From the NCBI GenBank assembly GCA_900320815.1, contig ONTY01000003.1, positions 1 through 16,871 on the forward strand: a stretch of DNA of 16,871 bases, read 5' to 3'. Origin of the DNA: an uncultured Pseudomonadota bacterium. GTDB taxonomy: Bacteria > Pseudomonadota > Gammaproteobacteria > Burkholderiales > Burkholderiaceae_C. Positions 1 to 12,156 of the stretch are shown in pieces. The translations under genes were made by a program, and so were the position numbers. The stretch's first letter is position 1, and each line of letters begins with the position of its first letter. A model generated the notes under the pieces. That model saw nothing but the letters and a program-made list of their open reading frames with translations. It ran no database searches and was not told the DNA's origin.

Positions 1-920
1 TTAATACAATTACGCGCCCGCGCGCGGTGCAGGACGCACCAGACGCCACCGAGATGAAAGTGCAGCGCGGCGAAGTGCAGTTTGAAAATGTGCGCTTTTT
101 GTACCGCGACGGCAGCCGCGCCGTGATTGACAATCTGAATCTGCACATCAAGCCCGGCGAAAAAGTCGGGCTGGTGGGGCGCTCGGGCGCGGGCAAAAGC
201 ACGCTCGTCAATCTGCTGCTGCGTTTTCACGATGTGCAGGGCGGGCGCATTTTGATTGACGGGCAGGATATTGCCCACGTCACGCAGGACAGTTTGCGCG
301 GCGCCATTGGCATGGTTACGCAAGACACGTCGCTGCTGCACCGCTCCATGCGCGACAACATCCTGTATGGCCGCCCCGACGCGGGCGAAGAACACATGCA
401 CGCCGCTGCGCAGCGCGCGCAGGCCGATGAGTTCATCGCGCAACTAAGCGACCAGAAAGGGCGCACGGGCTATGACGCGCACGTGGGCGAGCGCGGCGTG
501 AAGCTCTCCGGTGGGCAGCGCCAGCGCGTGGCGATTGCGCGCGTCATGCTCAAAGACGCCCCCATCCTGCTGCTGGACGAAGCCACCAGCGCGCTGGACA
601 GCGAAGTGGAAGCCGCCATCCAGGAAAGCCTGCACGAGCTGATGGAAGGCAAGACGGTGATTGCCATCGCGCACCGCCTCTCCACCATCGCCGCGCTGGA
701 TCGCCTCATCGTCATGGACGGCGGGCGCATCGTGGAAGAGGGCACACACGCCGAACTGCTCGCGCGCGGTGGCATCTACGCCGGCCTCTGGAAGCGGCAG
801 AGCGGCGGCTTTTTGGGCTGCGGCCCCGGCTCGCTGCCAGCCGCGTGCGTGCGGAAAATTGCAAATACTCATGATGATGAAGACTGGAACGCCGCTTTAT
901 ATGCGGGCGATGATGAATAA
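1..920 (+). CDS. ABC exporter, C-terminal nucleotide-binding half (5' partial)
   Basis: This is the ATPase half of an ABC exporter; the reading frame is open to the left edge (first full codon at base 3), so the membrane domain lies outside the window. The Walker A motif GRSGAGKST is at about 177-203, the signature LSGGQ at 504-518, Walker B ILLLDEATSALD near 565-600 and the switch histidine in IAHRLSTI near 667-690. The protein would hydrolyse ATP at the inner membrane to drive export; the style resembles fused permease-ATPase exporters of the MsbA or multidrug type, but the substrate cannot be told. The family-like part ends near QSGGFLG (about base 818). The following tail is rich in Asp and Glu, and from about base 864 it is encoded by a copy of the dispersed hairpin repeat, which also supplies the region of the stop codon. 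The gene converges on the restriction cassette. Confidence 0.9.
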   Translation, partial: NTITRPRAVQDAPDATEMKVQRGEVQFENVRFLYRDGSRAVIDNLNLHIKPGEKVGLVGRSGAGKSTLVNLLLRFHDVQGGRILIDGQDIAHVTQDSLRGAIGMVTQDTSLLHRSMRDNILYGRPDAGEEHMHAAAQRAQADEFIAQLSDQKGRTGYDAHVGERGVKLSGGQRQRVAIARVMLKDAPILLLDEATSALDSEVEAAIQESLHELMEGKTVIAIAHRLSTIAALDRLIVMDGGRIVEEGTHAELLARGGIYAGLWKRQSGGFLGCGPGSLPAACVRKIANTHDDEDWNAALYAGDDE

Positions 921-925
921 ACCAG
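864..925 (+). repeat. Dispersed hairpin repeat, copy 1 (inside the ABC gene's 3' end)
   Basis: The copy starts with ATACTC (865-870), has a stem GCCGC-TTTATAT-GCGGGC (891-908) and ends ATGATGAATAAACC, matching in order and spacing the copy at 995-1058. It runs through the last codons and the TAA stop of the ABC gene. Confidence 0.6.
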
Positions 926-994
926 CATCTATGGAGTGATGCCTTCCAATGCAGGCGAAATGCTTGCTCATCAGAAGCAGGCGGCTGGTTCACT

Positions 995-1058
995 TGATAC
1001 TCCTTCACATAACATGGAATTGCCCGCGACTTATGCGGGCGGTAATGTGATACCACCT
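995..1058 (+). repeat. Dispersed hairpin repeat, copy 2
   Basis: The left arm is GATACTCCTTC (996-1006), the stem-loop is GCCCGC-GACTTAT-GCGGGC (1022-1040) and the right arm is GTGATACCACC (1047-1057). This is one of the cleanest copies and I used it as the reference. No T-run follows the stem, so it is not a classical intrinsic terminator. It lies between the convergent ABC and res genes. The bases between copies 1 and 2 (about 926-994) hold a weaker, similar stem (GCAGGC-GAAAT-GCTTGC) that may be a decayed further copy. Confidence 0.75.
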
Positions 1059-1073
1059 GGTTTTGTCATTTTT

Positions 1074-1093
1074 CTGTAGGGGCGTCCCTACAG
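1074..1093. repeat. Perfect 8-bp inverted repeat with GTAGGGGC-type ends
   Basis: CTGTAGGG and CCCTACAG face each other across the four bases GCGT, just after the stop end of res. A T-run lies before the stem on the + strand rather than after it, so it does not fit a standard terminator in either direction. Its GTAGGGGC start matches the element at 6184 on the other side of the restriction cassette. Confidence 0.6.
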
Positions 1094-1101
1094 CTTCGCT
1101 C

Positions 1102-3987
1102 TTACTTAAAGAGCGCGCTCAACGCCGCCTCGTTCTGCACCGCCAGCACCGCCGCGCGCACACCGCTGTCCATCAAATCCAGGCGATTGAGCCGCGCCCC
1201 GCCAGCCGCATCCCTATCCTTGCGAATCATTTGCACGCGCCCAAGCGGCGTGGCGTCATCCTGCCTCAAGCATTCCTGCGCATAGCGCGCCAGCCCTTGT
1301 GCTTTTGGCAGATTATCGGAATACTGCGCGCCGTGCGGCTCCAGAATATCTATCACATAGCCAATATGTGGCTCACGGCGCACGATAATGAAATCAGGTG
1401 CAAACACATCCTGCACATTGGCGTCTTTTTCATAAAGCACGCGCAGACGCCACGGCGCTTTATTGTCGTTGCGCAGCCAGCACACAAAATCAGGGCGTTT
1501 TTCTTCTTCCGCAATCACTGCCTCTTCCCAGTCATTGAGGCTGATGCGCGCATCGCCCCGGCCTGCGTGAGCAAAAAGATGGCTTGCATAGCGTTTGCTC
1601 CCCTCTTTGACTGGGGGCGAAACAATTGTTGTGGGCAACTGGAACGTTTGCGGGCTTGCTTCGTCCCCATCGCGCACAATTTCCTTGAAGTCCTGCTGCA
1701 CTTTCCAGGCGAGCGCGCCACTGCAGCGCAAAACCGGCAATCGCCACGCATCGCGCAGGCGATGGAACTCCTGCCTGGCCCAGGCGTGCAAAGCGTCGCG
1801 GCAGCCCGTATTACCCGCATACAAAATCACGTCAATGCGTGGGTCATCGGCGCTGCCCTCCTGCTGCAGCCGCAGCGCCCACATTTTGTAAACGCTGTCG
1901 CTGGCAAGACGCTTGTTCGTAGCGCGCAATTGGCGTTCAATATCTTTTTCTGCCGCAAAAAAGTCAGGCGTGCCGCCATCATCATCCAACCCGTCAATAA
2001 TGGTGTGGCCAAACGCATCCACTGTGACAGTCAGCAGTTTGAACTTCCTGATTTTTTCCGCCAGCGCCTCATATTCCCCGGTATCTTTCAATGTGCGGAT
2101 ATATTCTGAAAGTTTTTCCACAATGGCTTGCGTCACCAGCTCCGCCGCATCATCTTTCAAGCCCGCCTGCACCAGAAGATGCGCCAAGGCAAAAAGTGAC
2201 GTCAGATAATCATTGATTTTCTTGCGTTCCATCTCCCAGCAAATCAGCCCCGCACGGTTGATGAAATCAAGCACCTGCACGCGGTCAAACGTGCCCGGCA
2301 CCGGCTGCGGACGCCGTGGTGCAGGCGCTGCTGTGCCAGCGGGCATTGCCGCTACCTGCCCTCCGCCGCCATGCCCGCGCGGCGCCGGCTGTGCCGCCAC
2401 GCTTGGCGCAGTTGCTGACGCCTGCGCTGCTGCAGGCGCAGCGTGCGGCGCCCCTTCTCCTTCGGCGTGCAAAGTAAATGGCGCCGCCCCTGCTGCAGCG
2501 CCGCTGTGCACCTGCTGCGCCCCGCTGCCCCCTTGCTGCTGCTGTGCGAGTGTCGTGGCTGCAGCGGGCACGGAGGTGTGCACCACCGTCAACACTTCGC
2601 GTTCTGGCTTTTCTATTGCTTCGCCCTCAATATCGCCCACGCTGGCTTCTTCCCGGCTTTTGAGCGCCGCGACGACTTTTTCCACCGCCGCCTTGTCAAA
2701 ATACGGCAAAAACAGCTTCACATCGTTGAGCACCTCATCGCTTGCAATACGCTGGTGCAGCGGCGTGCGCACCATGCGCCCGAGCAATTGCGCGATATGC
2801 GTTGCGTCAACAGCGCGGCGGAACGACATCAGCGTCTCCGCCCGTGGGCAGTCCCAGCCCGTCACCAGCCCCTCTTTGAAAAAAACGATACGCACATGCG
2901 GGTCGCCCTCAATCGTGGACGGCTCCTGATACGCAATCTCCAGCCCATTGGCCACGAGCGTTGATTTGTCACCAAACGCATGCACCGCCTCCCCACGGGC
3001 AAAGCGCCTGCCCGCCGCCTTTTCAATTTCCTGCATGCACTCGCCCAGGCTGGTGGCCGATGCCTCATCGCCCGCCCGGTTTTCCACCTGCACAATCAGC
3101 ACCGGGCGCACCTGCTGCCCGCCGCGAAACTGCTCGCAATGCGCCTGCCAGCGCGCGCATTTATCGAGCCAGTCCTCGGCTGCCGCGCGCAGCACCGACA
3201 GGCCGATATTCACCCCGCCGTTTTCCGGGTATTTGATACGGATTTTGTCTTTCAGCAACCCGGAGCGGCGCACCGCGTCAATATCCACCTCCACCGTTGG
3301 ATATGTAATGGCGCGCGTTTTGCCCATAAACGCATCAAAACGCTCAATTGTGGCCGACATGCCCAGCACCAGCGGCATGGGCGGCAAGCCATCCGGGGGG
3401 CTGCCAAGCAGGAACTTTTGCATGATGGTGGTCGCCTCCCGCATCTTTGCGCCGCCCTGCATGCCACGGTGCGCCTCGTCAATAATGACGTAAAGCTGCC
3501 CCGCCTTTTCCCGCACTGTGGCCGCCAGCGTTTGCCAGATGGTGTGGTTGCGGTCGCCCGCGCGCACCAGGCGCGACTTGCTGCCGAGCTTTTGCGTATT
3601 CAGGAAATAAATGTGCCCATCCTCGAGTATGCGCTGGTCAAACGTTTCATCAATCTCGCGCATGCGCCGCGCGATGCCCTCGCCGCACCAGACGGCGATT
3701 TTCTCGCGCGACTGGCGGTTGAGCTCCGGCGAATCTGAGAGCCAGAGAAACACCGCCTGCGGCTGCTCGTCATACACCGCATCCGCAAACGCCACGCCGC
3801 GCACAATACTTTCAATCAGCGCCGCCATGATAATCGTCTTGCCCGAGCCGGTCGGCGCCGTGAGCGCAATCACGCGGCTTTCATTCGCCCGCCTGCTGCC
3901 GGCAGCGGCAGCATCATCCAGATAGCCGAGTATGGTGTACACGGCATCGCGCTGGAAGCCGTGCAATGTGTTCCTGGAGGCACTCAT
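1102..3987 (-). CDS. res: Type III-like restriction endonuclease subunit, DEAD/DEAH helicase (Res)
   Basis: This is the helicase-nuclease subunit of a Type III-like restriction system, which would act with Mod to translocate along and cut unmodified DNA. I start it at the ATG at 3985-3987, giving 961 residues, because it forms an ATGA overlap with the mod stop and has AGGAGG a few bases upstream (3995-4000). Helicase motifs in order are APTGSGKT (44-51), IIDEAH (168-173), GMSATIERF (209-217), LVTGWDCPRAE (374-384) and QLLGRMVR (400-407). Residues 472-566 are a long Ala/Gln/Pro/Gly-rich linker. The C-terminal part has APDFIIVR (863-870) then VIDILEPHG (878-886), which looks like the PD...D core of a restriction nuclease fold without the usual lysine; from memory this DILEPH form recurs in the family. 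The gene is intact. Its cleavage activity probably depends on a working Mod, which is broken next door. Confidence 0.88.
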   Translation of the reverse strand: MSASRNTLHGFQRDAVYTILGYLDDAAAAGSRRANESRVIALTAPTGSGKTIIMAALIESIVRGVAFADAVYDEQPQAVFLWLSDSPELNRQSREKIAVWCGEGIARRMREIDETFDQRILEDGHIYFLNTQKLGSKSRLVRAGDRNHTIWQTLAATVREKAGQLYVIIDEAHRGMQGGAKMREATTIMQKFLLGSPPDGLPPMPLVLGMSATIERFDAFMGKTRAITYPTVEVDIDAVRRSGLLKDKIRIKYPENGGVNIGLSVLRAAAEDWLDKCARWQAHCEQFRGGQQVRPVLIVQVENRAGDEASATSLGECMQEIEKAAGRRFARGEAVHAFGDKSTLVANGLEIAYQEPSTIEGDPHVRIVFFKEGLVTGWDCPRAETLMSFRRAVDATHIAQLLGRMVRTPLHQRIASDEVLNDVKLFLPYFDKAAVEKVVAALKSREEASVGDIEGEAIEKPEREVLTVVHTSVPAAATTLAQQQQGGSGAQQVHSGAAAGAAPFTLHAEGEGAPHAAPAAAQASATAPSVAAQPAPRGHGGGGQVAAMPAGTAAPAPRRPQPVPGTFDRVQVLDFINRAGLICWEMERKKINDYLTSLFALAHLLVQAGLKDDAAELVTQAIVEKLSEYIRTLKDTGEYEALAEKIRKFKLLTVTVDAFGHTIIDGLDDDGGTPDFFAAEKDIERQLRATNKRLASDSVYKMWALRLQQEGSADDPRIDVILYAGNTGCRDALHAWARQEFHRLRDAWRLPVLRCSGALAWKVQQDFKEIVRDGDEASPQTFQLPTTIVSPPVKEGSKRYASHLFAHAGRGDARISLNDWEEAVIAEEEKRPDFVCWLRNDNKAPWRLRVLYEKDANVQDVFAPDFIIVRREPHIGYVIDILEPHGAQYSDNLPKAQGLARYAQECLRQDDATPLGRVQMIRKDRDAAGGARLNRLDLMDSGVRAAVLAVQNEAALSALFK
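2290..2574 (-). other. Low-complexity linker within Res
   Basis: Residues about 472-566 of Res are almost entirely Ala, Gln, Pro, Gly, Ser and His, with runs such as AQQQQGG and GHGGGGQ. They separate the helicase core from the C-terminal region. The stretch looks disordered and is probably a flexible hinge. Confidence 0.7.
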
Positions 3988-6129
3988 GCCTGCCCCTCCT
4001 TGTCGGCGTTGATGCGGAAGTTTTCCAGATAATCGTGATAAAGGTAATGGCAGGTTTTGTCCGCAAACTGCACGGCCAGCCGCGCGAAGTTTTCCGGGCA
4101 ATCAGCCACGATAAACACATCGCTGACGTCCGCGTGCTGCTCCATGCCTGCGCGCAACGCCACCAGTCCCTTTTCTTGCAGCAGCACAGCGAAGCCGTTT
4201 TGCGGCAGCAGCAGCATGGACGGCAATGCGTCCCCTTCGTCAAGCTGCGGGCACTCGCCGCGCGCCCCCGCCTGCATCCACAGCAGCGGCAGCAGCGCGC
4301 GGAACTGCTGCCCCAGCGCCACGCTGGTTTTGTCCAGAAAACCGAGCTTGAAATACATGGCGTTGGCGGCAAAGCCTGCAGCCATATCGCGCTCAGTGCC
4401 CAGATATTGCCCTCCCAGCGGCTCGCCCTTGAGGTTTTCGCCGCGAATGCTGCACACCGTGCGCGGCCAGGTCACGTGGCGCGCAATGCCCAGCGCCTCC
4501 CACGCCGCATCGCCCGGCTTGTGCCCAGCCTCGCGCAACGATTTTTCTTCATCGGCGGACACTTCATTGTTTGTGACCAGAATGCAGCGCCGCTGCCCGC
4601 CATCCGCAGCGTTGAGCAGGTTCACGGCGTGCAGTGTCGTGCCGCTGCCAGCAAAAAAGTCGAGAATGAGGGCGTTTGGCTTGTTTATAACAATTGCCTT
4701 TAAGCAGTCACGAACAGCATAAATGGATTTTGGAAAAGCAAAATTACGTCCTGGGATAATTGACCTAATTAAACGTGAACCATATTCACCAGCGTGGTGC
4801 GCTTGTCTGTTCCATACGCTTTTTGGAATTGCCAATGGAATTCTTTCTCCTGTTTCCTCAACTTGTGCAACCCCATTCGCATCTCTTCCTGTAATGACGA
4901 GTTCCCCTCGTGCTATACGCTCTCTTTGGTTACGCCCAAGATAAAGCAGTGACCATCGGTCGCGTTTTTTATCGTGAGCACCGACTTTTGCAAAACCCGC
5001 GTCTACAAGTTTTCGCAAATTAGGGGCTGACATTTGCCATACTTTATCATCGCCAGTGCCTCTAGCAATAGGCCACACCGTAACAAGCCCCCGTCTATCT
5101 GGAATGCTTTTTATATCACCGTCAAGAGGTAAGGGGTCACCAATATCAGAAATTTTTTTATTTATGGGGTCAATAAAAATTGGATAAAAACACCCCGGCG
5201 AATGACTGCGTTCCGAGTTACTTCCACCCCTCATTAGCCTCTCCCACCTGACTTGCCTTGCGCTGGCTGATTTCCGAGGAAAACATTGTGTCATCCAAGG
5301 GCGCTGGCCCAGCATTTCCTAAATAGACAAAAAAAGCATATTCTTCAACACGATACATTTCACGGTCTCGTGCGACGCCGTTTGTATTGATGACTATGCT
5401 AATCATCTGTTGATGTGCCTCCGGAAACATTTCTTCCAGCAGGCAGCCAAGGTGCAGGTATTCTTTTTCGTCTATGGTGACAATAAGCACGCTGTCCTTG
5501 GGATTGAGCAGGCGCTTGGCAATTTTCAGCCGCCGCTCCATCATGGCGAGCCATTTGCTGTGGCGCCATGCGTCGCTGCCGTCCACGTAGTCGTTGTTGT
5601 ATTTCCAGTCCTTTGCGCCAGTGTTGTAGGGCGGGTCAATGTAAATGCAGTCCACTTTGCCGGCGTAGAGCCATTCCAGCAGCTGCAGGGCGTGGTAGTT
5701 TTCCGCCTCTATCAGGGTGTGCCAAAGGCTGTGCGCCGGGCTGTTTTCCGGGGCGCGTTCAATCGTGTCAAGGCGCTGCAGGCAGGGGTAAATGGCTTCG
5801 CCAAAGCGGGCGATGCGCACAATATCGTCCAGAAAAAAGCATTCCACCTCGCCGCTGCCTTCGCCGCCTTTGCCACCCTGCGGCAGGCACCACGCCTTGC
5901 GCTCGTTTTTCTTGACTACCGTATACAGCGTGCCGCCAATGGCATCTTTGCGCGCCACGGTGCACTGCTCGGCAATGCGCGCGCCCCAAAGCGGTGTGTA
6001 TTCGGGCTGGTGGTTCTCAAATACCAGACCAAACTTTTTGTTCTGCAGCAGGCGGTCAACTTCGCGCTGGATGCCCTCGCGCAGCGCCTTGTCAGTGATT
6101 TGGTTGATGTAGTCCTGGAGTGCCGACAT
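3984..6129 (-). pseudogene. mod: Type III-like adenine DNA methyltransferase (Mod), frameshifted
   Basis: This is the modification subunit of the restriction pair; it would methylate adenine at the recognition site and give Res its specificity. It is read in two frames: an N-terminal part from ATG 6127-6129 to a stop at 5218-5220, and a C-terminal part open from about 5320 to 3984. The first carries IDPPYNTG (residues 164-171) and the second carries FFAGSGTT (about 4635-4658). The order DPPY before FxGxG is that of the beta class, as in Type III Mod. Homologous text continues across the break: the first frame ends in SSEISQRKAS and the second resumes with QVRWERLMRGGSN and FYPIFIDP, so one +1 shift is needed between about 5220 and 5320. 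A short A4 run at 5280-5283 is one possible place. It could be a true inactivating mutation, a sequencing indel or, less likely, programmed frameshifting. The start has only a weak GGA upstream. The gene overlaps res by four bases. Confidence 0.85.
4690..5420 (-). other. AT-rich central segment of mod (likely target-recognition domain)
   Basis: The bases between the DPPY-side block and the FAGSGTT-side block are visibly richer in A and T than the rest of mod and res, with stretches such as AATTGACCTAATTAAACG and ATTTTTTTATTTATGG. In Type III Mod proteins the region between motif IV and motif I is where the target-recognition domain sits. The boundaries are judged by eye. Confidence 0.6.
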
Positions 6130-6183
6130 GTGTTTTTTCCGTTTGCGTGTGCCCTCGGTGCAGTATGCCAAAGCAGAGCGAGC

Positions 6184-6257
6184 GTAGGGGCAATCCCCTG
6201 TGGTTGCCTTTGCTGTGGTGGGCATAAGCGCGGGCGCCCACACGGGGCGCCCTTCCA
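6184..6257 (+). repeat. Short MITE-like repeat with GTAGGGGC end
   Basis: The stretch begins GTAGGGGCAATCCCC, continues TGTGGTTGCC, and ends in GGGCGCCC-ACAC-GGGGCGCCC then TTCC. The two ends are roughly inverted (GTAGGGGC against GGAAGGGCGCC). The pattern resembles small non-coding GTAGGGGC repeats I recall from many bacterial genomes; this is recall, not a search. It lies just upstream of mod and directly abuts the hairpin repeat at 6257. Confidence 0.45.
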
Positions 6258-6322
6258 TATACTCTATCATTCACACTTTCATCACCGGCAATTTATGCCG
6301 GCGTTGGTGTGATACTACCATC
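6257..6322 (+). repeat. Dispersed hairpin repeat, copy 3
   Basis: The left arm is ATACTC (6259-6264), the stem-loop is ACCGGC-AATTTAT-GCCGGCG (6286-6303) and the right arm is TGGTGTGATACTACCA (6305-6320). It lies between lpxK and mod, both on the minus strand, and could weaken read-through from lpxK into mod, although no T-run follows the stem. Confidence 0.75.
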
Positions 6323-6349
6323 TATTGCACGGGCGCGGCGAGCATGTGT

Positions 6350-7366
6350 TCAATGGGGGGCGATGCCGATTTCAGCGGCAGGGGGGTGAGGAAGCCTTGT
6401 CAGTTTTTTATCCAACGCCTCAAAAAACTCCGCTGGAATATCCAGTTCCAGCGGCACGGCGAGTGCCTGGGGCGCCAGTGGCCAGAGTTTGGCGGCGTCT
6501 TTTTCGGTGCACAGCAGAATATCGGCATGCCGTATCTGCGGCGGGAGGTTTTCAAATGTGCCGTGGTCGGGCAGGGGGAGGGTTTTTTCTAGCTGTATGC
6601 CGCGTGCGCGCAGCATGGCAAAGAAGTTTTCCGGGCGTGCGATGCCGGCGAGGGCGGCGGCGGCTTGCCCGCGCAGGCTGGCGAGGGGGACTGGGCTGCC
6701 GTCTGCACGCTGGGCGTTGTTTGCGAGGCGGCGGGTGGCAGCGAAGACGGGGGCAGTGGCTGCGGGCGGAGGGACGGCGTCCGCTTGCGTCAAGAGGATG
6801 AAATCTACGGGGCGCGGCCAGGCCTCGCGCAGGGGACCGGCGGGCAGCAGCCAGCCGTTGCCGATGCCGCGTGTGTCAAAGGCGCAGATTTCTATGTCGC
6901 GCGCCAGCACCGCGTGCTGCAGGCCGTCGTCGCACAGCAGCACGTTGACCTGTGGGTGCGCGGCGAGCAGGGCACGGCCTGCGTCAAAGCGGCGAGGGGC
7001 GACAAAAACGGGGCAGCCGCTGCGCTGGCGCAGGAGCAGGGGTTCGTCGCCCACGTCCTGCGGCGTGCTGTCTGGCAGCACTTCGCGGCAGTCGTGCTGC
7101 TGTCTGCCGTAGCCGCGCGAGATGATGCCGGGGCGCCAGCCGCGTTGTGTGAGATGCCGGGCGATGGCCAGTGCGGTGGGGGTTTTGCCGGCGCCGCCGG
7201 CGATGACGTTGCCGATGACGATGGTGGGCACGGGCAGACGCTGGGCGCGTGTGCGCTGGCGCGCTTGCTGGCGCCGGGCAAGCGCGCCGTAGAGCAGGGA
7301 AAGGGGCCAGAGCAGGCAGGCGAGGGCGCCACGACGCTGCCAGGCGCGGCGCAAGTGGTGTTGCAC
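6350..7366 (-). CDS. lpxK: Tetraacyldisaccharide 4'-kinase LpxK
   Basis: LpxK phosphorylates the 4' position of the lipid A disaccharide precursor at the inner-membrane face, using ATP. The sequence has the N-terminal hydrophobic segment LLWPLSLLYG, the P-loop GNVIAGGAGKTPT, then ISRGYGR, LLCDDGLQHAVLARDIEI and GNGWLLPAGPLREAWPRP, all LpxK hallmarks, and ends with the LCTEKDAAKL block. The length, about 338 residues, is normal. The start is unsure: no ATG is available, and GTG at 7366 (giving a protein beginning QHHLRRAWQRRG after the first Met) or TTG at 7375 are the candidates, neither with a clear ribosome site. It follows exbD closely on the same strand, so it is probably read as the third gene of exbB-exbD-lpxK. 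Confidence 0.9.
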   Translation of the reverse strand: MQHHLRRAWQRRGALACLLWPLSLLYGALARRQQARQRTRAQRLPVPTIVIGNVIAGGAGKTPTALAIARHLTQRGWRPGIISRGYGRQQHDCREVLPDSTPQDVGDEPLLLRQRSGCPVFVAPRRFDAGRALLAAHPQVNVLLCDDGLQHAVLARDIEICAFDTRGIGNGWLLPAGPLREAWPRPVDFILLTQADAVPPPAATAPVFAATRRLANNAQRADGSPVPLASLRGQAAAALAGIARPENFFAMLRARGIQLEKTLPLPDHGTFENLPPQIRHADILLCTEKDAAKLWPLAPQALAVPLELDIPAEFFEALDKKLTRLPHPPAAEIGIAPH

Positions 7367-7399
7367 GCGCAGCAACAGTGCAGTGCCACAGCGCGGACG

Positions 7400-7819
7400 T
7401 TAGTCCGTGGTGGCGGCGCCGGTTTGCGCGGCAAAGCTGATGTGCGAGAGGCCGATACGGCGTGCGGCGTCCATCGCGGTGACGACGGCCTGCACGGGGG
7501 CGGCGGCGTCGGCACTGATGACGAGGATGGTTTTCTCGCCCGGGTGGCGCGCGCTGAGCGCATCGGCAATGGCTTCGGCACTGCGCTGCTCCATCGCCTG
7601 CCCGCCGACGGCGTAGCGTCCGTCGGAAGTGACGGCGATGACGAGTTGCTCGGGCTGCTCTTGCGCGGAGTCGGGGCTGGCGGAGGGCAGGTTGACGTGC
7701 AGTTCGGTGTAGCGGCTGTAGGTGGTGGTGAGCATCAGGAAGATGAGAATCACCAGCAGCACGTCAATAAAGGGGATGAGATTAATTTCCGGCTCGGTGT
7801 GTACGCGGTTGAATTTCAC
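7400..7819 (-). CDS. exbD: Biopolymer transport protein ExbD/TolR
   Basis: ExbD works with ExbB as an inner-membrane proton-driven motor, passing energy to TonB for uptake across the outer membrane. The protein opens KFNRVHTEPEINLIPFIDV, then a single membrane segment LLVILIFLMLTTTY with the key aspartate in FIDV, followed by a periplasmic domain ending near LSHISFAAQ. I choose GTG at 7819 because it overlaps the exbB stop as GTGA and has GGGAGG just upstream; a longer TTG start at 7837 is possible. The length is about 139 residues, typical for the family. A TolR role is an alternative that sequence alone does not exclude, but no tolA, tolB or pal is visible in the window. Confidence 0.9.
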   Translation of the reverse strand: MKFNRVHTEPEINLIPFIDVLLVILIFLMLTTTYSRYTELHVNLPSASPDSAQEQPEQLVIAVTSDGRYAVGGQAMEQRSAEAIADALSARHPGEKTILVISADAAAPVQAVVTAMDAARRIGLSHISFAAQTGAATTD

Positions 7820-8460
7820 TGCCGGCCTCCCGCGCAAAAGCGTTCGAGGTGGCGCGCAAAACGCTCGGCGGCCAATTCCAGCGCCAGCGTATATCCATCC
7901 ACACGGGCGCGGAAATAGCGCCAGAAAATCAGCGATGGAATGGCCACAATAAGACCGAATGCGGTGTTGTAGAGCGCCGTGGAGATACCGTGCGCAAGCA
8001 TGGTGGGGTTGCCGCCAGAGAGCGCGCCGGTAGACGCCTGCGAGCCGAAAATCTCAATCATGCCAATGACGGTGCCCAGCAGCCCAAGCAGCGGTGCGGC
8101 AGAGGCGATGGTGCCCAGCGCGGGCAAATACCGCTCCATCTGGTGCGCCACGCTGCGGCCTGCGGCCTGCATAGCGGCGCGCACGTCGCCCGGTGTGCTG
8201 TGCGGGTTTTGGTTGAGGGCGCGCCAGCCGGCAGCAAGCACTTCGCCAAGCGCACAGTTTTCAGCCAGTTGCGCGGCAATATCGGGCGTGGGAACGGAGT
8301 TGCGCGAAATGCCAATTGCCTCATCGAGCAGGTTACTGCTGCCTAAAATGCGCGAACTTTTGAGTTTGATGAAACGTTCAATAATGAACGCCAGCGCCAG
8401 AATGGAACACAAAATCAGCGGCCAGATGGGCCAGCCAGCGGCTTGTATGATGGACAGCAA
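7816..8460 (-). CDS. exbB: MotA/TolQ/ExbB proton channel family protein
   Basis: This is the channel partner of ExbD. It has an N-terminal membrane segment (about 9-28, WPIWPLILCSILALAFIIE), a cytoplasmic loop, and two further segments in the conserved block around LGTIASAAPLLGLLGTVIGM and ALYNTAFGLIVAIPSLIFW, the ExbB/TolQ family core. The length is 214 residues. The start is TTG at 8458-8460 with AGGA about nine bases upstream; no nearer ATG is in frame. It heads a minus-strand unit exbB-exbD-lpxK and diverges from xseA across a gap of about 230 bases. No Fur box could be identified with confidence. Confidence 0.9.
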   Translation of the reverse strand: MLSIIQAAGWPIWPLILCSILALAFIIERFIKLKSSRILGSSNLLDEAIGISRNSVPTPDIAAQLAENCALGEVLAAGWRALNQNPHSTPGDVRAAMQAAGRSVAHQMERYLPALGTIASAAPLLGLLGTVIGMIEIFGSQASTGALSGGNPTMLAHGISTALYNTAFGLIVAIPSLIFWRYFRARVDGYTLALELAAERFARHLERFCAGGRQ

Positions 8461-8483
8461 GATGTTTTTCCTGTGTGTTTGGC

Positions 8484-8509
8484 GCCTGCACGCCCGGCAG
8501 GCTTTTTTT
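8484..8509 (+). terminator. Terminator-like hairpin in the exbB/xseA divergent gap
   Basis: GCCTGC (8484-8489) pairs with GCAGGC (8497-8502) across a 7-base loop and is followed by seven T bases (8503-8509). In shape it is an intrinsic terminator for + strand transcription, yet no + strand gene ends just upstream. Confidence 0.6.
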
Positions 8510-8693
8510 CATGCGGATGGGCGTCGATGCGAAAGGGGTGGATTATGGCGCAGCACGCCGTTGGCAGCAGGTGCCAGCGTGTCAACCGTGGCTGTGCAGG
8601 AGTTTGTGGGAGAGTGTGTGCATCCAGCGCCCCGAACGCGCAGCCATGCGCCCAGCGCCGCTGCGCCGCATATTCACTGAGGATGACGGTGTC

Positions 8694-9983
8694 ATGAACA
8701 GCCTTTTTGATGCGGTTCCGGCGCAGCCCTTTGTGTGGAGCGTGGCGGCGCTGGTGCGCGCTGTGGCCGATGCGCTGGATGCGCGCTTTACCCCTGTGGT
8801 GGTGCGCGGCGAGGTCAGCGGTTTGCACCGCGCGCCCAGCGGGCACCTTTATTTCGCTCTCAAAGACAGCAGTGCGCAGTTGCAGTGCGTGATGTACCGC
8901 AGCGCCACTGCGCGCCTGGCTTTTGCGCCGCGCGAAGGTGCGCTGGTGTGCGCCCGTGGGCGGCTGGCGGTGTATGCGCTGCGCGGCGGGCTGCAGCTGG
9001 TGGCCGAGCGCCTGCAGCTTGACGGGCAAGGCGCGCTGTTTGAGCAGTTTTTGCGGCTCAAAGCCAAGCTGGAAGCCGAGGGACTGTTCGCGCCAGAGCA
9101 CAAGCGCCCCCTGCCCACCATGCCGCGTGCCATCGGCCTGGTGACCTCCCTCTCCGCCGCCGCGCTGCACGACTTTTGCACCACGCTGGCGCGCCGCGCG
9201 CCGCAGGTGCGTGTGCTGCTGGCGCCCGCTGCTGTGCAAGGCAGCACCGCGCTCGCCGAACTGTGCGCCGCGCTGCAGCGGCTCTATGCGCTGGCAGGCG
9301 AGATTGACGCCATTGCCCTGGTGCGCGGCGGCGGCGCGCTGCAAGACCTGCACGCCTTCAATGATGAGCAGCTTGCCCGCACCATTGCCGCCAGCCCCGT
9401 GCCCACCGTCAGCGGCGTGGGGCATGAAACCGACTTCACCATCGCTGACTTTGCCGCTGATGTGCGCGCCCCCACACCCACTGCCGCCGCCGAACTCATC
9501 GCGCCAGAGCGCGCGCAGCTTTTTGCCGCGCTGGATGCTGCTGCGCGGCGCCTGAGTGCCGCCGTGCATCAGCGCCTGAACAGCGAAGCACAACGTCTGG
9601 ACTGGTTCGCCGCACGCTTGGCGCGCCCACAAGAAGCCGTGCAACGCGCCGCGCTGCACCTTGCCACTTTGCACGCACGGCTGCGCCACGCCAGCGACGC
9701 GCGTCTGGCTGCTGAGGCCGCGCGACTGGCGCAACTCGCCACCCGTTTGCCGCGCGCTCTGTCCGCTGTGCCAGAGCGCGAGCAAGTGCGCCTGGCGCAG
9801 CTTGCAGCGCGGCTGGCGGCACTCAGTCCGCAGCGCACCTTGGAGCGCGGCTTCGCCTGGCTGCAAACCGAGAGCGGCGCACCGCTGACCCGTGCCGCCG
9901 ACGCACACGCGGGGCAGCACATTGCCGCAATCCTTGGTGACGGTGAGGTGTTTGCGCGTGTGACCGGGCAAAAACTGCGCTGA
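8694..9983 (+). CDS. xseA: Exodeoxyribonuclease VII large subunit
   Basis: XseA is the catalytic subunit of exonuclease VII, which degrades single-stranded DNA from both ends together with the small subunit XseB. I start at ATG 8694 (MNSLFDAVPAQPFVWSVAAL), with GAGGA about ten bases upstream, giving 429 residues, a usual length. The N-terminal OB-fold shows VVVRGEVSGLH and SGHLYFALKDSSAQLQCVMY. The catalytic region shows PRAIGLVTSLSAAALHDF, then RGGGALQDLHAFNDE, VSGVGHETDFTIADFAADVR and APTPTAAAELI. A long Ala/Leu/Arg-rich helical stretch follows, and the end has LSPQRTLERGFAW and a VFARVTGQKL tail. The frame is open further upstream (to 8475) but that part looks non-coding. sodB follows after about 54 bases. 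Confidence 0.95.
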   Translation: MNSLFDAVPAQPFVWSVAALVRAVADALDARFTPVVVRGEVSGLHRAPSGHLYFALKDSSAQLQCVMYRSATARLAFAPREGALVCARGRLAVYALRGGLQLVAERLQLDGQGALFEQFLRLKAKLEAEGLFAPEHKRPLPTMPRAIGLVTSLSAAALHDFCTTLARRAPQVRVLLAPAAVQGSTALAELCAALQRLYALAGEIDAIALVRGGGALQDLHAFNDEQLARTIAASPVPTVSGVGHETDFTIADFAADVRAPTPTAAAELIAPERAQLFAALDAAARRLSAAVHQRLNSEAQRLDWFAARLARPQEAVQRAALHLATLHARLRHASDARLAAEAARLAQLATRLPRALSAVPEREQVRLAQLAARLAALSPQRTLERGFAWLQTESGAPLTRAADAHAGQHIAAILGDGEVFARVTGQKLR

Positions 9984-10037
9984 CTGCCTACACTGCGGCG
10001 CTTTTTCTAGCCGCCTCCCACGAAAGGAAAACACACG

Positions 10038-10622
10038 ATGCAACGCACCCTCACCCCTCCCCCCTACGCGCTTGACGCCCTCGCTCCCATCTATTCCAAA
10101 GAAACGATGGAATACCACTGGGGCAAACACCATAAAGCCTATGTTGACAAACTCAATGAGCTGCAGGCGGGCACTGAGTTTGAAAACATGCCGCTGGAAG
10201 ACGTTATCAAAAAAGCGCAAGGCGGCATCTATAACCAAGCGGCGCAAATCTCCAACCACGACTTTTTCTGGCAGTGCATGAAGCCGCAAGGAGGCGGCCA
10301 GCCCAGCGGCGCACTGCTGGCAGCGATTGAAAAAAAATGGGGCAGCTTTGACGCCTTCAAAAAAGCTTTCGCCGCCAGCGCCGCCGGCAATTTTGGCAGC
10401 GGCTGGACGTGGCTGGTGAAAAAAACGGATGGCACACTCGACATCGTCAACATGGGGGCAGCCGGCACGCCTCTGACTACGGGTGATGCGCGCATCCTGT
10501 GCATTGACGTGTGGGAACACGCCTACTACATTGACTACCGCAACGCGCGCCCCAAGTTCATTGAAGCATTTCTGGATAAATTGGTGAACTGGGGCTTTGC
10601 CGAAGCCAATTTTGGCGCCTGA
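10038..10622 (+). CDS. sodB: Iron-type superoxide dismutase
   Basis: SodB converts superoxide to oxygen and hydrogen peroxide in the cytoplasm. Metal ligands fit the Fe/Mn family: His27 (EYHWGKHHKAYV), His74 (SNHDFFW), Asp157 and His161 (DVWEHAYY). A glutamine at position 70 (AAQISNH) is the pattern of the iron type. The length is 194 residues, as expected. AAAGGA precedes the ATG by about ten bases. The gene lies 54 bases after xseA; a small stem (GCGGC/GCCGC, 9995-10014) sits in that gap, and a possible -10 TACACT (9989-9994) has no good -35, so a separate promoter is unproven. A strong terminator follows 24 bases after the stop. Confidence 0.96.
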   Translation: MQRTLTPPPYALDALAPIYSKETMEYHWGKHHKAYVDKLNELQAGTEFENMPLEDVIKKAQGGIYNQAAQISNHDFFWQCMKPQGGGQPSGALLAAIEKKWGSFDAFKKAFAASAAGNFGSGWTWLVKKTDGTLDIVNMGAAGTPLTTGDARILCIDVWEHAYYIDYRNARPKFIEAFLDKLVNWGFAEANFGA

Positions 10623-10642
10623 TCTCCAGGGCAAACCAGCAC

Positions 10643-10678
10643 AAAAGCCGCCCGCCACTTGCAGCGGGCGGCTTTTTT
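10643..10678. terminator. Bidirectional intrinsic terminator after sodB and the EamA gene
   Basis: GCCGCCCGC (10647-10655) pairs perfectly with GCGGGCGGC (10664-10672) across 8 bases. Six T bases follow (10673-10678) and four A bases precede (10643-10646), so it can stop transcription from both converging genes. Confidence 0.93.
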
Positions 10679-10694
10679 GTGTCAACAAACCGGC

Positions 10695-11795
10695 TCAAAG
10701 TACCTCATGCGCCAGCGCCGCGCCAAGAACCAAGGCAGCACCAATAAGCTGCGCGGCGCCAAATGGCTCGTGCAGCAGGAATATGGAAAGGGCAAGCGCC
10801 GCAGCCGGTTCTATGTAGCTGAGCATGGCAGCGCTTTGGGCGCGCAGCCCGTCCAGGCTGGAAAAATACATGGCATAGGCCACGCCGGTGTGCAGCACAC
10901 CGAGCAATAAAATCAGCGCCAACACGCAAACAGAGAGTGAAAACGGCGCTCCGCCGCCACTGCCGCCCGCCGTAAAAACTACGTAGGGAAAAATGGTGGC
11001 AGCGGCAGCAAGCAGTTCCACCGTCGTTTTGCCATATATATCGGGCACATGGATTTTTTTGTTCATGATAACCACCAGCGCATACAGCAGCGCACCGCCC
11101 AGACCAAACACAATGCCCTTGACGTGTGTGGCCGCCAATGCGCCCTGTGGCGCACCACCGCTGGCAATGCCAGAAACCAATGCCATGCCTGCTGCGGCGA
11201 TGGCGACGCAGGTGTTTTTTTTGAGTGTGATTTTCTCGCCAAACACCAGCGGCGAGAGCGTTATTAAAATCACCGGCTGCATGGCGTAGCACAGCGTGGC
11301 GACGGCAATGGTGGTGTAACGGTAGGCTTCAAACAGCAGTATCCAGTTTGTGCCCAGAACAAAGCCGGCAAGCGTGAGCGGCAGGATGTGCCTTTTTTCT
11401 ACGCCAAGGCGCAGCGTGCCGTTTTTGAACGCGGCAAATCCCCACAAAAACAGCCCGCCAATGGCGCCGCGTGTGCACGCCAGCGCCGCCGAAGAAAGCG
11501 GAATATGCCGCCGGAATACGCCAATGGAGCCATAAATGAGCATGGCGGCGACGATGAGCACCAGAGCGCGATGCGTGTGCGCCGGGGCAGCGGGTGAAGG
11601 TGAAGTTGTGGGTATGGAAGAGAGATACTCGTGTTTCTTATGTTTGGCTGCCGGCAAGATATGCAGGCAAACGTGAAATACCCGTTGCAAATGATGATGC
11701 GCCGTCCATGCAGCCCTTGTGGCTTGTGTTTTCGGTGCGTGCGCCAATGGGCACATGGCAGCGCAGGGAGTGGAGAATTTTTCGTCTCTATACAA
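10695..11795 (-). CDS. EamA/DMT-family transporter
   Basis: The protein is a ten-helix inner-membrane transporter of the drug/metabolite type with two EamA repeats; the substrate cannot be told. The first helix is ALVLIVAAMLIYGSIGVF; later helices include LTLAGFVLGTNWILLF, ITLSPLVFGEKITLKK and, in the second repeat, GVAYAMYFSSLDGLRAQSAAML and LSYIEPAAALALSIFLLHEPFG, the typical EamA ending. The open frame gives 366 residues, about 50 more than usual, and the extra N-terminus looks non-native: it runs through a hairpin repeat (11623-11684). TTG at 11657 would give 320 residues, a more normal size, while ATG 11795 and 11756 are alternatives; none has a convincing ribosome site. It converges on sodB and shares its terminator. 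Confidence 0.85.
   Translation of the reverse strand: MYRDEKFSTPCAAMCPLAHAPKTQATRAAWTAHHHLQRVFHVCLHILPAAKHKKHEYLSSIPTTSPSPAAPAHTHRALVLIVAAMLIYGSIGVFRRHIPLSSAALACTRGAIGGLFLWGFAAFKNGTLRLGVEKRHILPLTLAGFVLGTNWILLFEAYRYTTIAVATLCYAMQPVILITLSPLVFGEKITLKKNTCVAIAAAGMALVSGIASGGAPQGALAATHVKGIVFGLGGALLYALVVIMNKKIHVPDIYGKTTVELLAAAATIFPYVVFTAGGSGGGAPFSLSVCVLALILLLGVLHTGVAYAMYFSSLDGLRAQSAAMLSYIEPAAALALSIFLLHEPFGAAQLIGAALVLGAALAHEVL
11623..11684 (+). repeat. Dispersed hairpin repeat, copy 4
   Basis: The left arm is GATACTC (11624-11630), the stem-loop is TGCCGGC-AAGATA-TGCAGGCA (about 11649-11669) and the right arm is GTGAAATACCC (11673-11683). It lies within the 5' part of the EamA reading frame, and one candidate start codon (TTG 11657) falls inside it. 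Confidence 0.6.
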
Positions 11796-11853
11796 TACCC
11801 ATGATATTTATAGCGTTATGCCGGCAAGATAAGCGGGTATGTAGATGATACAG
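11791..11853 (+). repeat. Dispersed hairpin repeat, copy 5
   Basis: The left arm is AATACCC (11794-11800), the stem-loop is TGCCGGC-AAGATA-AGCGGGTA (about 11819-11840) and the right arm is GATGATACA. It shares the core TGCCGGCAAGATA with copy 4, and its right stem has diverged. The furthest upstream ATG for the EamA gene lies in it. Confidence 0.55.
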
Positions 11854-12156
11854 GCGTGAGTGCAGTATAGGTTCCATGAGTTGCGCCCCTGCAAAATCGG
11901 CGTTTGTACGTCAACGCTGGGGTAACAAAGCCAGAAAACTATGGAGGGGTATCCAGGTGAGTGCCTGTGCACGCTGTGTTTGTGTGTCAAGGTATCTGCA
12001 TATACTGTGGTAGTATATAACCAAATGCCCGCGATATTTGCGGGTAGCAGAAGGATACTCATACATTCTGTATTTGTGTGACCTTCCATGCCCGTGCTGT
12101 GTCTATGCAAAAGGCGCAGGGTATTTTTGCGTCAGCAATACGTCAATCGCTTTCTC
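11854..12156. other. Gene-free stretch with repeat copies
   Basis: I see no convincing gene here. A minus-strand open frame of 100 codons (11808-12110) covers most of it, but the composition is low-quality and it is made largely of repeat sequence. The stretch holds hairpin repeat copy 6 and two loosely similar segments (about 11956-11995 and 12065-12110) containing GTGCTGTGT and TTTGTGTG-type text, which may be an old partial duplication. Confidence 0.5.
12007..12060 (-). repeat. Dispersed hairpin repeat, copy 6 (inverted)
   Basis: Read on the minus strand it begins GAGTATCCTTC and ends TATATACTACCAC, matching copy 2 in reverse orientation. The stem-loop is GCCCGC-GATATTT-GCGGGT (12027-12045). 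It is the only clearly inverted copy, so the family is not simply a tandem duplication. Confidence 0.65.

Follow-up and report, generated by a model that had tools for sequence, protein, structure and literature searches.

The window analysed here, the whole of a 16,871-nucleotide stretch of contig ONTY01000003.1 (assembly GCA_900320815.1) from an uncultured Pseudomonadota bacterium, carries six copies of a dispersed 59-bp element in which a palindromic core lies between two short ATAC-containing boxes. Hundreds of further copies, mostly intergenic, occur in the genome to which the window belongs and in that of a sister species, both carriers being related bacteria of the rumen. Extragenic high-copy palindromes have been known for decades, and their function is still without agreement. 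For this family, an internal ruler and steps of 11-12 bp between neighbours point to a particle on double-stranded DNA over an RNA hairpin or a transposon relic. The reading that we tentatively favour, putting it just short of an even chance, is that the element is a selected double-stranded DNA site, putatively protein-bound and probably wrapped, at the ends of transcription units.

The six copies in the window

The copies lie on the plus strand as follows.

865..923, plus strand: copy 1, ATACTC, 19 nt, arms CGCCGC / GCGGGC around TTTATAT; matrix score 36
997..1055, plus strand: copy 2, ATACTC, 19 nt, GCCCGC GACTTAT GCGGGC, 8 nt, GATACC; matrix score 57
6259..6317, plus strand: copy 3, ATACTC, 19 nt, ACCGGC AATTTAT GCCGGC, 8 nt, GATACT; matrix score 53
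11625..11683, plus strand: copy 4, ATACTC, 19 nt, GCCGGC AAGATAT GCAGGC, 8 nt, AATACC; matrix score 53
11795..11853, plus strand: copy 5, ATACCC, 19 nt, GCCGGC AAGATAA GCGGGT, 8 nt, GATACA; matrix score 43
12002..12060, plus strand: copy 6, ATACTG, 19 nt, GCCCGC GATATTT GCGGGT, 8 nt, GATACT; matrix score 46

The original prediction of six dispersed hairpin repeats holds, with left boxes starting at 865, 997, 6259, 11625, 11795 and 12002, and so does the predicted order of box, stem, loop, stem and box. The copies align gap-free as ATACYC (ATACTG once), 19 nt, a 6-nt arm, 7 nt, a 6-nt arm, 8 nt and (G)ATAC. Spacings given earlier as approximate are fixed at 19, 6, 7 and 6 bases in the six copies, and the copy near 12007, which had been taken for inverted, reads ATACTG-N19-GCCCGC-N7-GCGGGT-N8-GATAC on the plus strand. 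The arms of the predicted hairpin are there, and the element is more than a hairpin with arms, both boxes being direct repeats of one motif. As predicted, no T run follows the arms on either strand in the column frequencies of 88 copies, so the element is not a plain terminator.

Copy 1, whose right box is degenerate (ATAAA) and whose stem is imperfect (CGCCGC / GCGGGC), overlaps the 3' end of an ABC-transporter open reading frame (ORF) at 27-920. Copy 2 sits in a convergent gap by our own gene calls, its centre 132 bp from that of copy 1. Copy 3 is flanked by a methylase ORF (5218-6270), with whose start, as listed, it shares 12 bases, and by lpxK (6350-7375).

Copy number and taxonomic range

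The genome of the window (G000, in which the window is contig C213) is a 2.10-Mb draft of 339 contigs, 81% complete; the sister genome (G036) is inferred to be Ottowia RGIG2912 and is 97% complete, and G000 falls in the same genus (Ottowia: Comamonadaceae). A covariance model built from the six window copies alone (R1) returned at least 150 scored matches in G000, out of 1243 candidates and with the six included. In a search with this model at E 1e-3, G000 gave 82 matches and 30 relatives gave none. A second model (R2), built from 150 copies of both species together, matched 2 of the 29 genomes of the genus at E 1e-4, G000 with 141 matches and G036 with at least 150.

Elements were counted with an oriented position matrix that assigns one strand to each site. 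It called 200 elements in the G000 set (536,802 b, 48 stretches after joining) and 365 in the sister set (805,270 b, 79 stretches), 221 of the latter in the large fetched contigs that make up 509,266 b of that set; gap and density figures for the sister use this 509-kb set and not the 805-kb one. Loci L069, L073 and L112 were excluded from the sister set, and sister loci overlapping fetched contigs were removed. The resulting densities of 0.37 per kb in G000 and 0.43 per kb in the sister, or about one site per 2.5 kb, are somewhat high because the stretches were mostly picked for holding matches; extrapolation would give some 800 elements per genome. An early matrix set comprised 89 elements in 233,541 b (21 stretches, most picked for matches), and the same stretches reversed gave 0 at a score of at least 6 and 1 at score 4; later reversed-sequence controls gave 0 elements in 437 kb and in 506 kb. 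Low-scoring copies are scarce, with scores below 26 in 2/200 elements of G000 and 12/365 of the sister. A fully symmetric 69-bp palindrome at twice the copies (178, 168) was rejected as an artefact of scanning both strands, one-strand assignment giving 89.

Beyond the genus, a pattern scan gave two Xylophilus loci and one Rhodocyclaceae locus among the matches listed. In the Xylophilus genome the model finds nothing at E 0.01. In the Rhodocyclaceae metagenome-assembled genome, from buffalo rumen, three overlapping model matches all lie on one 4-kb contig (L069, JAFZMK010000236.1), which was probably misbinned and would come from a third bacterium that carries the element. Viral contigs yielded 0 exact pattern matches, and no description of this element family was found in the literature, most subscription journals lying outside the search.

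Anatomy and symmetry

In the first 89 copies, ATAC (columns 6-9) is conserved at 97-99% and CC (32-33) and GG (47-48) at 96-98%, the information content being 0.806 bits per position over 65 positions, some 50 bits. The core is dyad-symmetric, about ATTGCCSGC, 7 AT-rich bp and GCSGGCAAT, and the direct-repeat ATACYC boxes start at -34 and at +19 or +20 bp from its centre, one facing the core and the other facing away. Box midpoints at -31.5 and +21.5 bp correspond to 3 and 2 turns of 10.5, a geometry in which the contacts to both boxes could lie on one face of the helix.

Oriented cores carry ATACY at -34 in 73/78 cases and at +19/+20 in 73/78 in G000, and in 169/191 and 174/191 in the sister; these cores carry a matrix call, hence the tallies are partly circular. 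Among cores with a matrix call, no box offset one helical turn off reached 4 copies; the cores without one (11/89 in G000, 8/199 in the sister) resemble terminators, tRNA or chance by eye in most of the cases shown. Core-only detection, which avoids the circularity, found a left-type box with a right-type box (LR) in 104 of 121 cores of G000, the others being 4 with two left-type boxes (LL), 0 with two right-type boxes (RR), 4 with R only and 9 with none. For the 296 sister cores the figures are LR 250, LL 22, RR 2, L only 4, R only 6 and none 12. Random intergenic points gave LR in 15/2232 and 24/3028, and LL in 3 and 9. The LL form, a minority of 26/417 cores, has the inward box on both sides and therefore inverted ends.

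The matched stem changes noted in the original prediction are real: pair 34/46 is Watson-Crick in 112/200 copies against a shuffled mean of 73, a value reached in 0/5000 shuffles. Across the arms, both sides are changed in 76 cells versus 31.5 in shuffles. The excess at the variable arm pairs is Watson-Crick, and at no pair does G-U exceed the independent-column expectation by over 2 cells (at sister pair 30/50, 108 G-U seen and 115 expected), while raw G-U and A-C cells on the oriented strand number 174 vs 47 in the sister and 97 vs 73 in G000. Short of proof, this pattern is somewhat easier to reconcile with symmetry in DNA or correction of palindromes than with pairing in RNA.

The 7-nt centre takes 105 distinct sequences in the 365 sister elements, where independent columns predict 249. 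The commonest are TTATGTT (60), TTATGAA (24), TTATCAA (22), TTTATAA (19) and AACATAA (15), several of them mutual reverse complements. In both species, several elements have a further short dispersed sequence, about GCTSTGTTSAACCAGCRTTGACGTA, after their right box (right flanks at L056:3699, L135:8468, L152:7315, L082:107 and L113:105); it is possibly another repeat family or a piece of a promoter.

Position relative to genes

Genes were called with our own codon-based caller, which is non-standard, and terminators with a simple scan of our own. Convergent gaps of at least 60 bp hold an element in 41/55 cases in G000 and 34/38 in the sister, divergent gaps of that size in 18/46 in each species, and tandem gaps in 59/146 and 73/134. 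Within tandem gaps there is no strand preference relative to genes (33 sense and 31 antisense in G000, 58 and 59 in the sister), and orientation is independent of the GC skew of the contig, agreeing with it in 72 cases and disagreeing in 83 in G000, and in 109 and 132 in the sister. Elements sit both before and after terminators, lying beyond one at 17 3' ends in G000 and 24 in the sister. The 3' ends without a scanned terminator number 100/135 with an element vs 93/125 without one in G000, and 99/138 vs 55/78 in the sister.

Some copies are intragenic. Fifteen sense copies in nine called genes are all in one frame (TPx6LPAxxAGxxxIP), which the 4 antisense ones are not; the genes include a Sel1-repeat protein, a DUF748/AsmA-like protein and a methyltransferase-glycosyltransferase, and the N-terminal copies in RsmB-, PrmC-, P-type-ATPase- and I78-inhibitor-like genes may be start-site miscalls. 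An origin as a peptide motif was rejected, the frame being open in only 126/200 elements of G000 and 180/365 of the sister. Low-complexity coding linkers with in-frame element repeats, encoding TPx6LPAxxAGxxxIP-like peptides, were seen at L140:10068-10392 (four copies at 108-bp steps), L175:4785-5817 and L045:1278-1454.

Spacing of neighbours and AT periodicity

Elements less than 125 bp apart, centre to centre, form 105 pairs (42 in G000, 63 in the sister), and 86 of these are at 72-73, 83-84, 95-96 or 107-108 bp. The distances observed below 125 bp are 71-74, 81-84, 93-99, 101, 107-110, 119-120 and 124, with a best-fit period of 11.9 in each species; repeats within coding sequence (L140, L045) contribute at least three pairs with a spacing of 108 bp and one with a spacing of 84. 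An earlier set of 99 pairs under 260 bp gave a best period of 11.7 with R 0.67, matched by 0/2000 sets jittered by up to 6 bp. By arrangement, the period is 11.8 for ++ pairs, 11.6 for -+ and 11.3 for +-.

AT content was fitted with a cosine, on the flanks only, around isolated elements, defined as those with no called neighbour within 200 bp. In the sister, 179 such elements have a period of 10.50 bp with the peak offset by -0.23 bp (R² 0.61), against R² 0.09 at control 3' ends without elements. Smoothed AT peaks lie at -63, -53, -41, -33, -21, -12, -1, +19, +31, +41, +52 and +62, and AT-rich DNA keeps in phase with the dyad to past +/-50 bp.

Comparison of the two species

At orthologous 3' ends, an element is present in both species in 40 cases, in G000 only in 8, in the sister only in 13 and in neither in 64; the corresponding figures at orthologous 5' ends are 22, 5, 7 and 82. 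Where both species have one (62 ends), the nearest elements share orientation in 46. For 34 orthologous pairs of the same orientation and with distances within 20 bp, 30 of them in rearranged gaps, spacer identity is 0.41 on the left and 0.38 on the right, with 0.32 for random pairs as the reference. Spacers between copies within a genome are no more alike than composition-matched random sequence (0.322 vs 0.325; 0.354 vs 0.356). What is conserved is the motif, not the sequence of the individual copy. Retention at orthologous ends despite nearly saturated spacers suggests that many copies are under selection, since a neutral motif of some 50 bits should not outlast such divergence at so many ends.

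Outside operons, gene order of the two species is heavily scrambled (REARRANGEMENT). The comparison of orthologous gaps proposed with the original prediction found an element call in either species at 8/62 conserved gene pairs, the gaps having diverged too far to display a clean empty site. Among gaps of at least 50 bp, 6/57 with an element and 26/46 of the others are kept as conserved pairs (Fisher p = 5e-7). Rearrangement affects 23/24 convergent gaps with an element and 5/6 without, and 6/7 and 5/10 divergent ones; we make no causal claim linking element and breakpoint, because almost every convergent gap is rearranged, with or without an element, and operons confound the comparison. In rearranged gaps, flank identity is 0.27 on the distal and 0.40 on the proximal side (26 pairs), while the distal left spacer, at 0.43 (14 pairs), is above the random value and the distal right spacer, at 0.36 (16 pairs), is equivocal.

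Copy pairs at least 90% identical share flanks in 3/3 cases in G000 and 10/11 in the sister, the exception lying at a stretch edge, as expected of duplicated genes or segments. Of 22 sister pairs at 83-89% identity, the flank is common in 3 and not in 10, with 9 at edges. A screen for similarity of one half only passed 218 of 134,940 pairs (128 left only, 56 right only, 26 both, 8 mixed), which is about the chance yield of its 99.9th-percentile cut. Among the matches listed, one clear core junction stands out: the left half of the sister element at L175:1648, together with about 40 bp of left flank, is 98-100% identical to three other copies, and the likeness ends at the core.

Tests of mobility and candidate proteins

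The original prediction had suggested REP/MITE-like elements (repetitive extragenic palindromes or miniature inverted-repeat transposable elements) moved by a transposase elsewhere. The likeness stands in abundance, extragenic location, preference for convergent gaps and covariation of the arms, and the movement is unsupported. A search for a REP-associated transposase found 0 Y1_Tnp matches in the sister at E 1, on which ground an origin from a REP-associated tyrosine transposase (RAYT) or IS200 was rejected for that species. In G000, which at 81% completeness could be missing the gene, the sole match is a truncated IS605-type remnant. This remnant lies at about 2778-3351 of L059 (G000:C277), a tnpA part on the minus strand abutting, by eye, a tnpB-like C-terminal end on the plus strand. 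Target duplications of 5, 6, 8 or 9 nt just outside the boxes were found at 0/197 elements in G000 and 0/328 in the sister, and those of 4 nt at 1 and 2. MITE-type terminal inverted repeats are absent from LR elements, whose end boxes are direct repeats. The REP tag GTAG occurs within 8 nt of the arms in 1/200 elements of G000 (4.2 expected) and 7/365 of the sister (6.2), and CGTC in 2/200 (4.4) and 3/365 (9.0); their complements are near expectation (CTAC 1 in G000 and 6 in the sister, GACG 6 and 3).

PF00589 matches two genes of the sister at E 1e-5, as many as XerC and XerD would account for, which they presumably are, and 5 genes of G000. Serine recombinases number 1 in G000 (IS607-like by eye) and 2 in G036. 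Among ParB-like proteins, serine recombinases and extra gyrase subunits, nothing compelling emerged as a binding protein.

Discussion

By distribution, the element is a member of a REP/BIME-like family (BIME, bacterial interspersed mosaic element); tests of membership set it apart from tagged REPs, MITEs and terminators. It resembles REPs and BIMEs in its hundreds of intergenic copies, bias towards 3' ends and convergent gaps, covarying palindromic core, occasional intragenic copies and species restriction (PMC3733652, PMC2817692). It differs in being 59 bp long against 20-40 bp, in having no enriched GTAG or CGTC tag and no Y1/RAYT match in the sister, and in its two direct-repeat boxes at fixed positions with helix-like spacing of neighbours; CGTC REPs, for their part, reportedly have no dedicated transposase (PMC3733652). 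With the E. coli gyrase motif, whose flanks have a period of 10.75 bp, and with BIME-2 elements, which are gyrase sites (PMC6379681), the element shares an intergenic position and, strongly in only one of the two species, a long helically periodic AT/GC pattern about a centre, but its boxes and palindrome are conserved and sequence-specific. Rickettsia palindromic elements likewise include in-frame intragenic copies (PMC10969869), the sense ones here being in one frame, whereas our element is mostly intergenic, 59 bp rather than about 150 bp, and of another anatomy.

A protein on duplex DNA is favoured because the boxes keep rigid helical positions, neighbours are phased and AT content is periodic in one species. 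Each element would be a putative duplex binding site for a sequence-specific protein assembly, with the core at the middle of a protein particle around which the DNA would bend or wrap, neighbouring particles perhaps being in contact. Such sites may work at transcription-unit ends, chiefly between convergent genes, in supercoil management or boundary marking, a role that would be like the one proposed for E. coli BIMEs and gyrase. Candidate binders are a nucleoid protein, gyrase with a partner, or a domesticated recombinase or transposase. The link to gyrase is attractive because of the periodic flanks of its motif and its association with BIME-2 (PMC6379681); the strictness of the boxes speaks for a binding protein of their own, acting by itself or together with gyrase.

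Several points weigh against this protein-bound site. Covariation of the arms is expected of a hairpin and not of an additive dimer site, and the G-U excess in the sister (174 vs 47) would favour a hairpin on the oriented strand, yet column composition alone predicts it. The strict boxes are unlike the degenerate gyrase motif (PMC6379681), and the search found no extra GyrA/ParC or ParB-like gene. The first element lies 20-60 bp past the stop codon in 71/135 cases in G000 and 89/138 in the sister, a REP-like crowding. Among neighbours, the 14 -- pairs are out of line, with a best period of 8.3, phasing is weak (R 0.38) in the 32 pairs spaced by at least 110 bp, and the fitted periods of 11.3-11.9 exceed 10.5; looping periods in vivo are often closer to 11 bp. 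The weakest point of the wrapping model is the AT misfit in G000, where flank periodicity around 99 isolated elements is weak and does not follow the phase seen in the sister (11.95 bp, R² 0.35, offset -5.3; control R² 0.13), and the permutation tests on AT columns disregard autocorrelation. Identities in orthologous versus random pairs are close, at 0.84/0.80 for the left box, 0.75/0.69 and 0.70/0.66 for the arms and 0.65/0.66 for the right box, in 34 pairs preselected for calls in both species; owing to that selection, it is the retention tally and not box identity that counts as evidence.

The same observations bear on a relic of the REP/MITE type, a non-autonomous mobile hairpin spread in the stem lineage by a since-lost transposase and kept passively or for a minor role, which we consider possible but unlikely. 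High copy number, presence in 2/29 genomes of the genus, extragenic and 3'-end bias, unit-like integrity with few half-elements and the in-frame intragenic copies all suit it, and the placing of ATAC at both ends, some 19 nt ahead of the hairpin feet and 10 nt beyond them, may echo the geometry of IS608 ends. Of the sister pairs at 83-89% identity, 13 can be assessed and 10 of these lack a common flank, which leaves room for older copying or movement, and because of these ten pairs the favoured reading is slightly weaker and the relic slightly stronger. The relic has to contend with the lack of a Y1 match in the sister and only a truncated IS605 remnant in G000, with the absence of 5, 6, 8 or 9 nt target duplications, and with shared flanks in 13/14 pairs of at least 90% identity, the other being at an edge; it also leaves the helix-like spacing unexplained, and low-scoring copies are few though spacers are at random identity. 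We rate as improbable an element acting in RNA, a hairpin in transcripts serving as 3' stabiliser, processing site or Rho-linked terminator. The frequent placement of first elements just past stop codons, the covarying arms and the outnumbering of A-C by G-U cells in the sister speak for it, and the original prediction had raised RNA processing as an option. That option is disfavoured by the lack of sense or antisense bias, the presence of elements in 18/46 divergent gaps per species and after terminators at 17 and 24 ends, and the helical look of the spacing; terminators, moreover, are no rarer where an element is present, and no pair shows a G-U excess above 2 cells.

In lambda-type attachment sites, inverted core arms enclose a 7-bp centre, and arm boxes in direct repeat are added to this core. 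The element likewise has inverted core arms, a 7-bp centre and direct-repeat boxes, and it might on that anatomy be a site of recombination in which the 7 bp form the overlap and the chromosome is shuffled. The switch of partner at the core of L175:1648, an LL class that could come from recombination in inverted orientation, and the rarity of conserved pairs among element gaps agree with this idea. We nonetheless find it more improbable still, since the element has hundreds of copies, integrases in the sister are limited to two PF00589 genes, RR is far rarer than LL (2 vs 22), the distal left spacer stays above random in rearranged pairs (0.43 vs 0.32), rearranged orthologous gaps give no general evidence of crossover in the core, and the link to breakpoints is confounded by operons. 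Very improbable, in our judgement, is a motif akin to an uptake signal, spread as cells take up and recombine DNA with a bias towards it. Spacers without relation to one another, the occurrence of both orientations, sub-motifs at helical spacing and tolerated in-frame intragenic copies would fit, but the information content, 0.806 bits per position over 65 positions, is high and above that of known uptake sequences, and the intermediate partial motifs that gradual drive should leave are few.

A more ambitious form of the protein-bound site is a genome-wide positioning code written in the sequence itself, with a site per ~2.5 kb, a dyad core, two phased boxes, a wrap of ~110 bp, placement at transcription-unit ends and neighbours in rotational register. 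We regard this form as doubtful, though conceivable; if true, one small bacterial lineage would have its own counterpart to strongly positioned nucleosomes or insulators. Should a binding protein be found, the family would offer natural test sites, roughly one every 2.5 kb, for the sequence-driven positioning of a chromosome-organising protein.

Other features of the window

Rfam gave 8 matches in the window at E up to 5, all well under their gathering scores; one of them, to SprD at 22 of 100 bits, overlaps copy 3. At 3984-5315 and 5218-6270 (minus strand), overlapping ORFs hold successive parts of one N6_N4 DNA methylase profile, positions 140-203 and 1-103 of 221. A ResIII helicase ORF at 1102-4101 adjoins this split methylase, forming a restriction-modification locus with the methylase read as two pieces.

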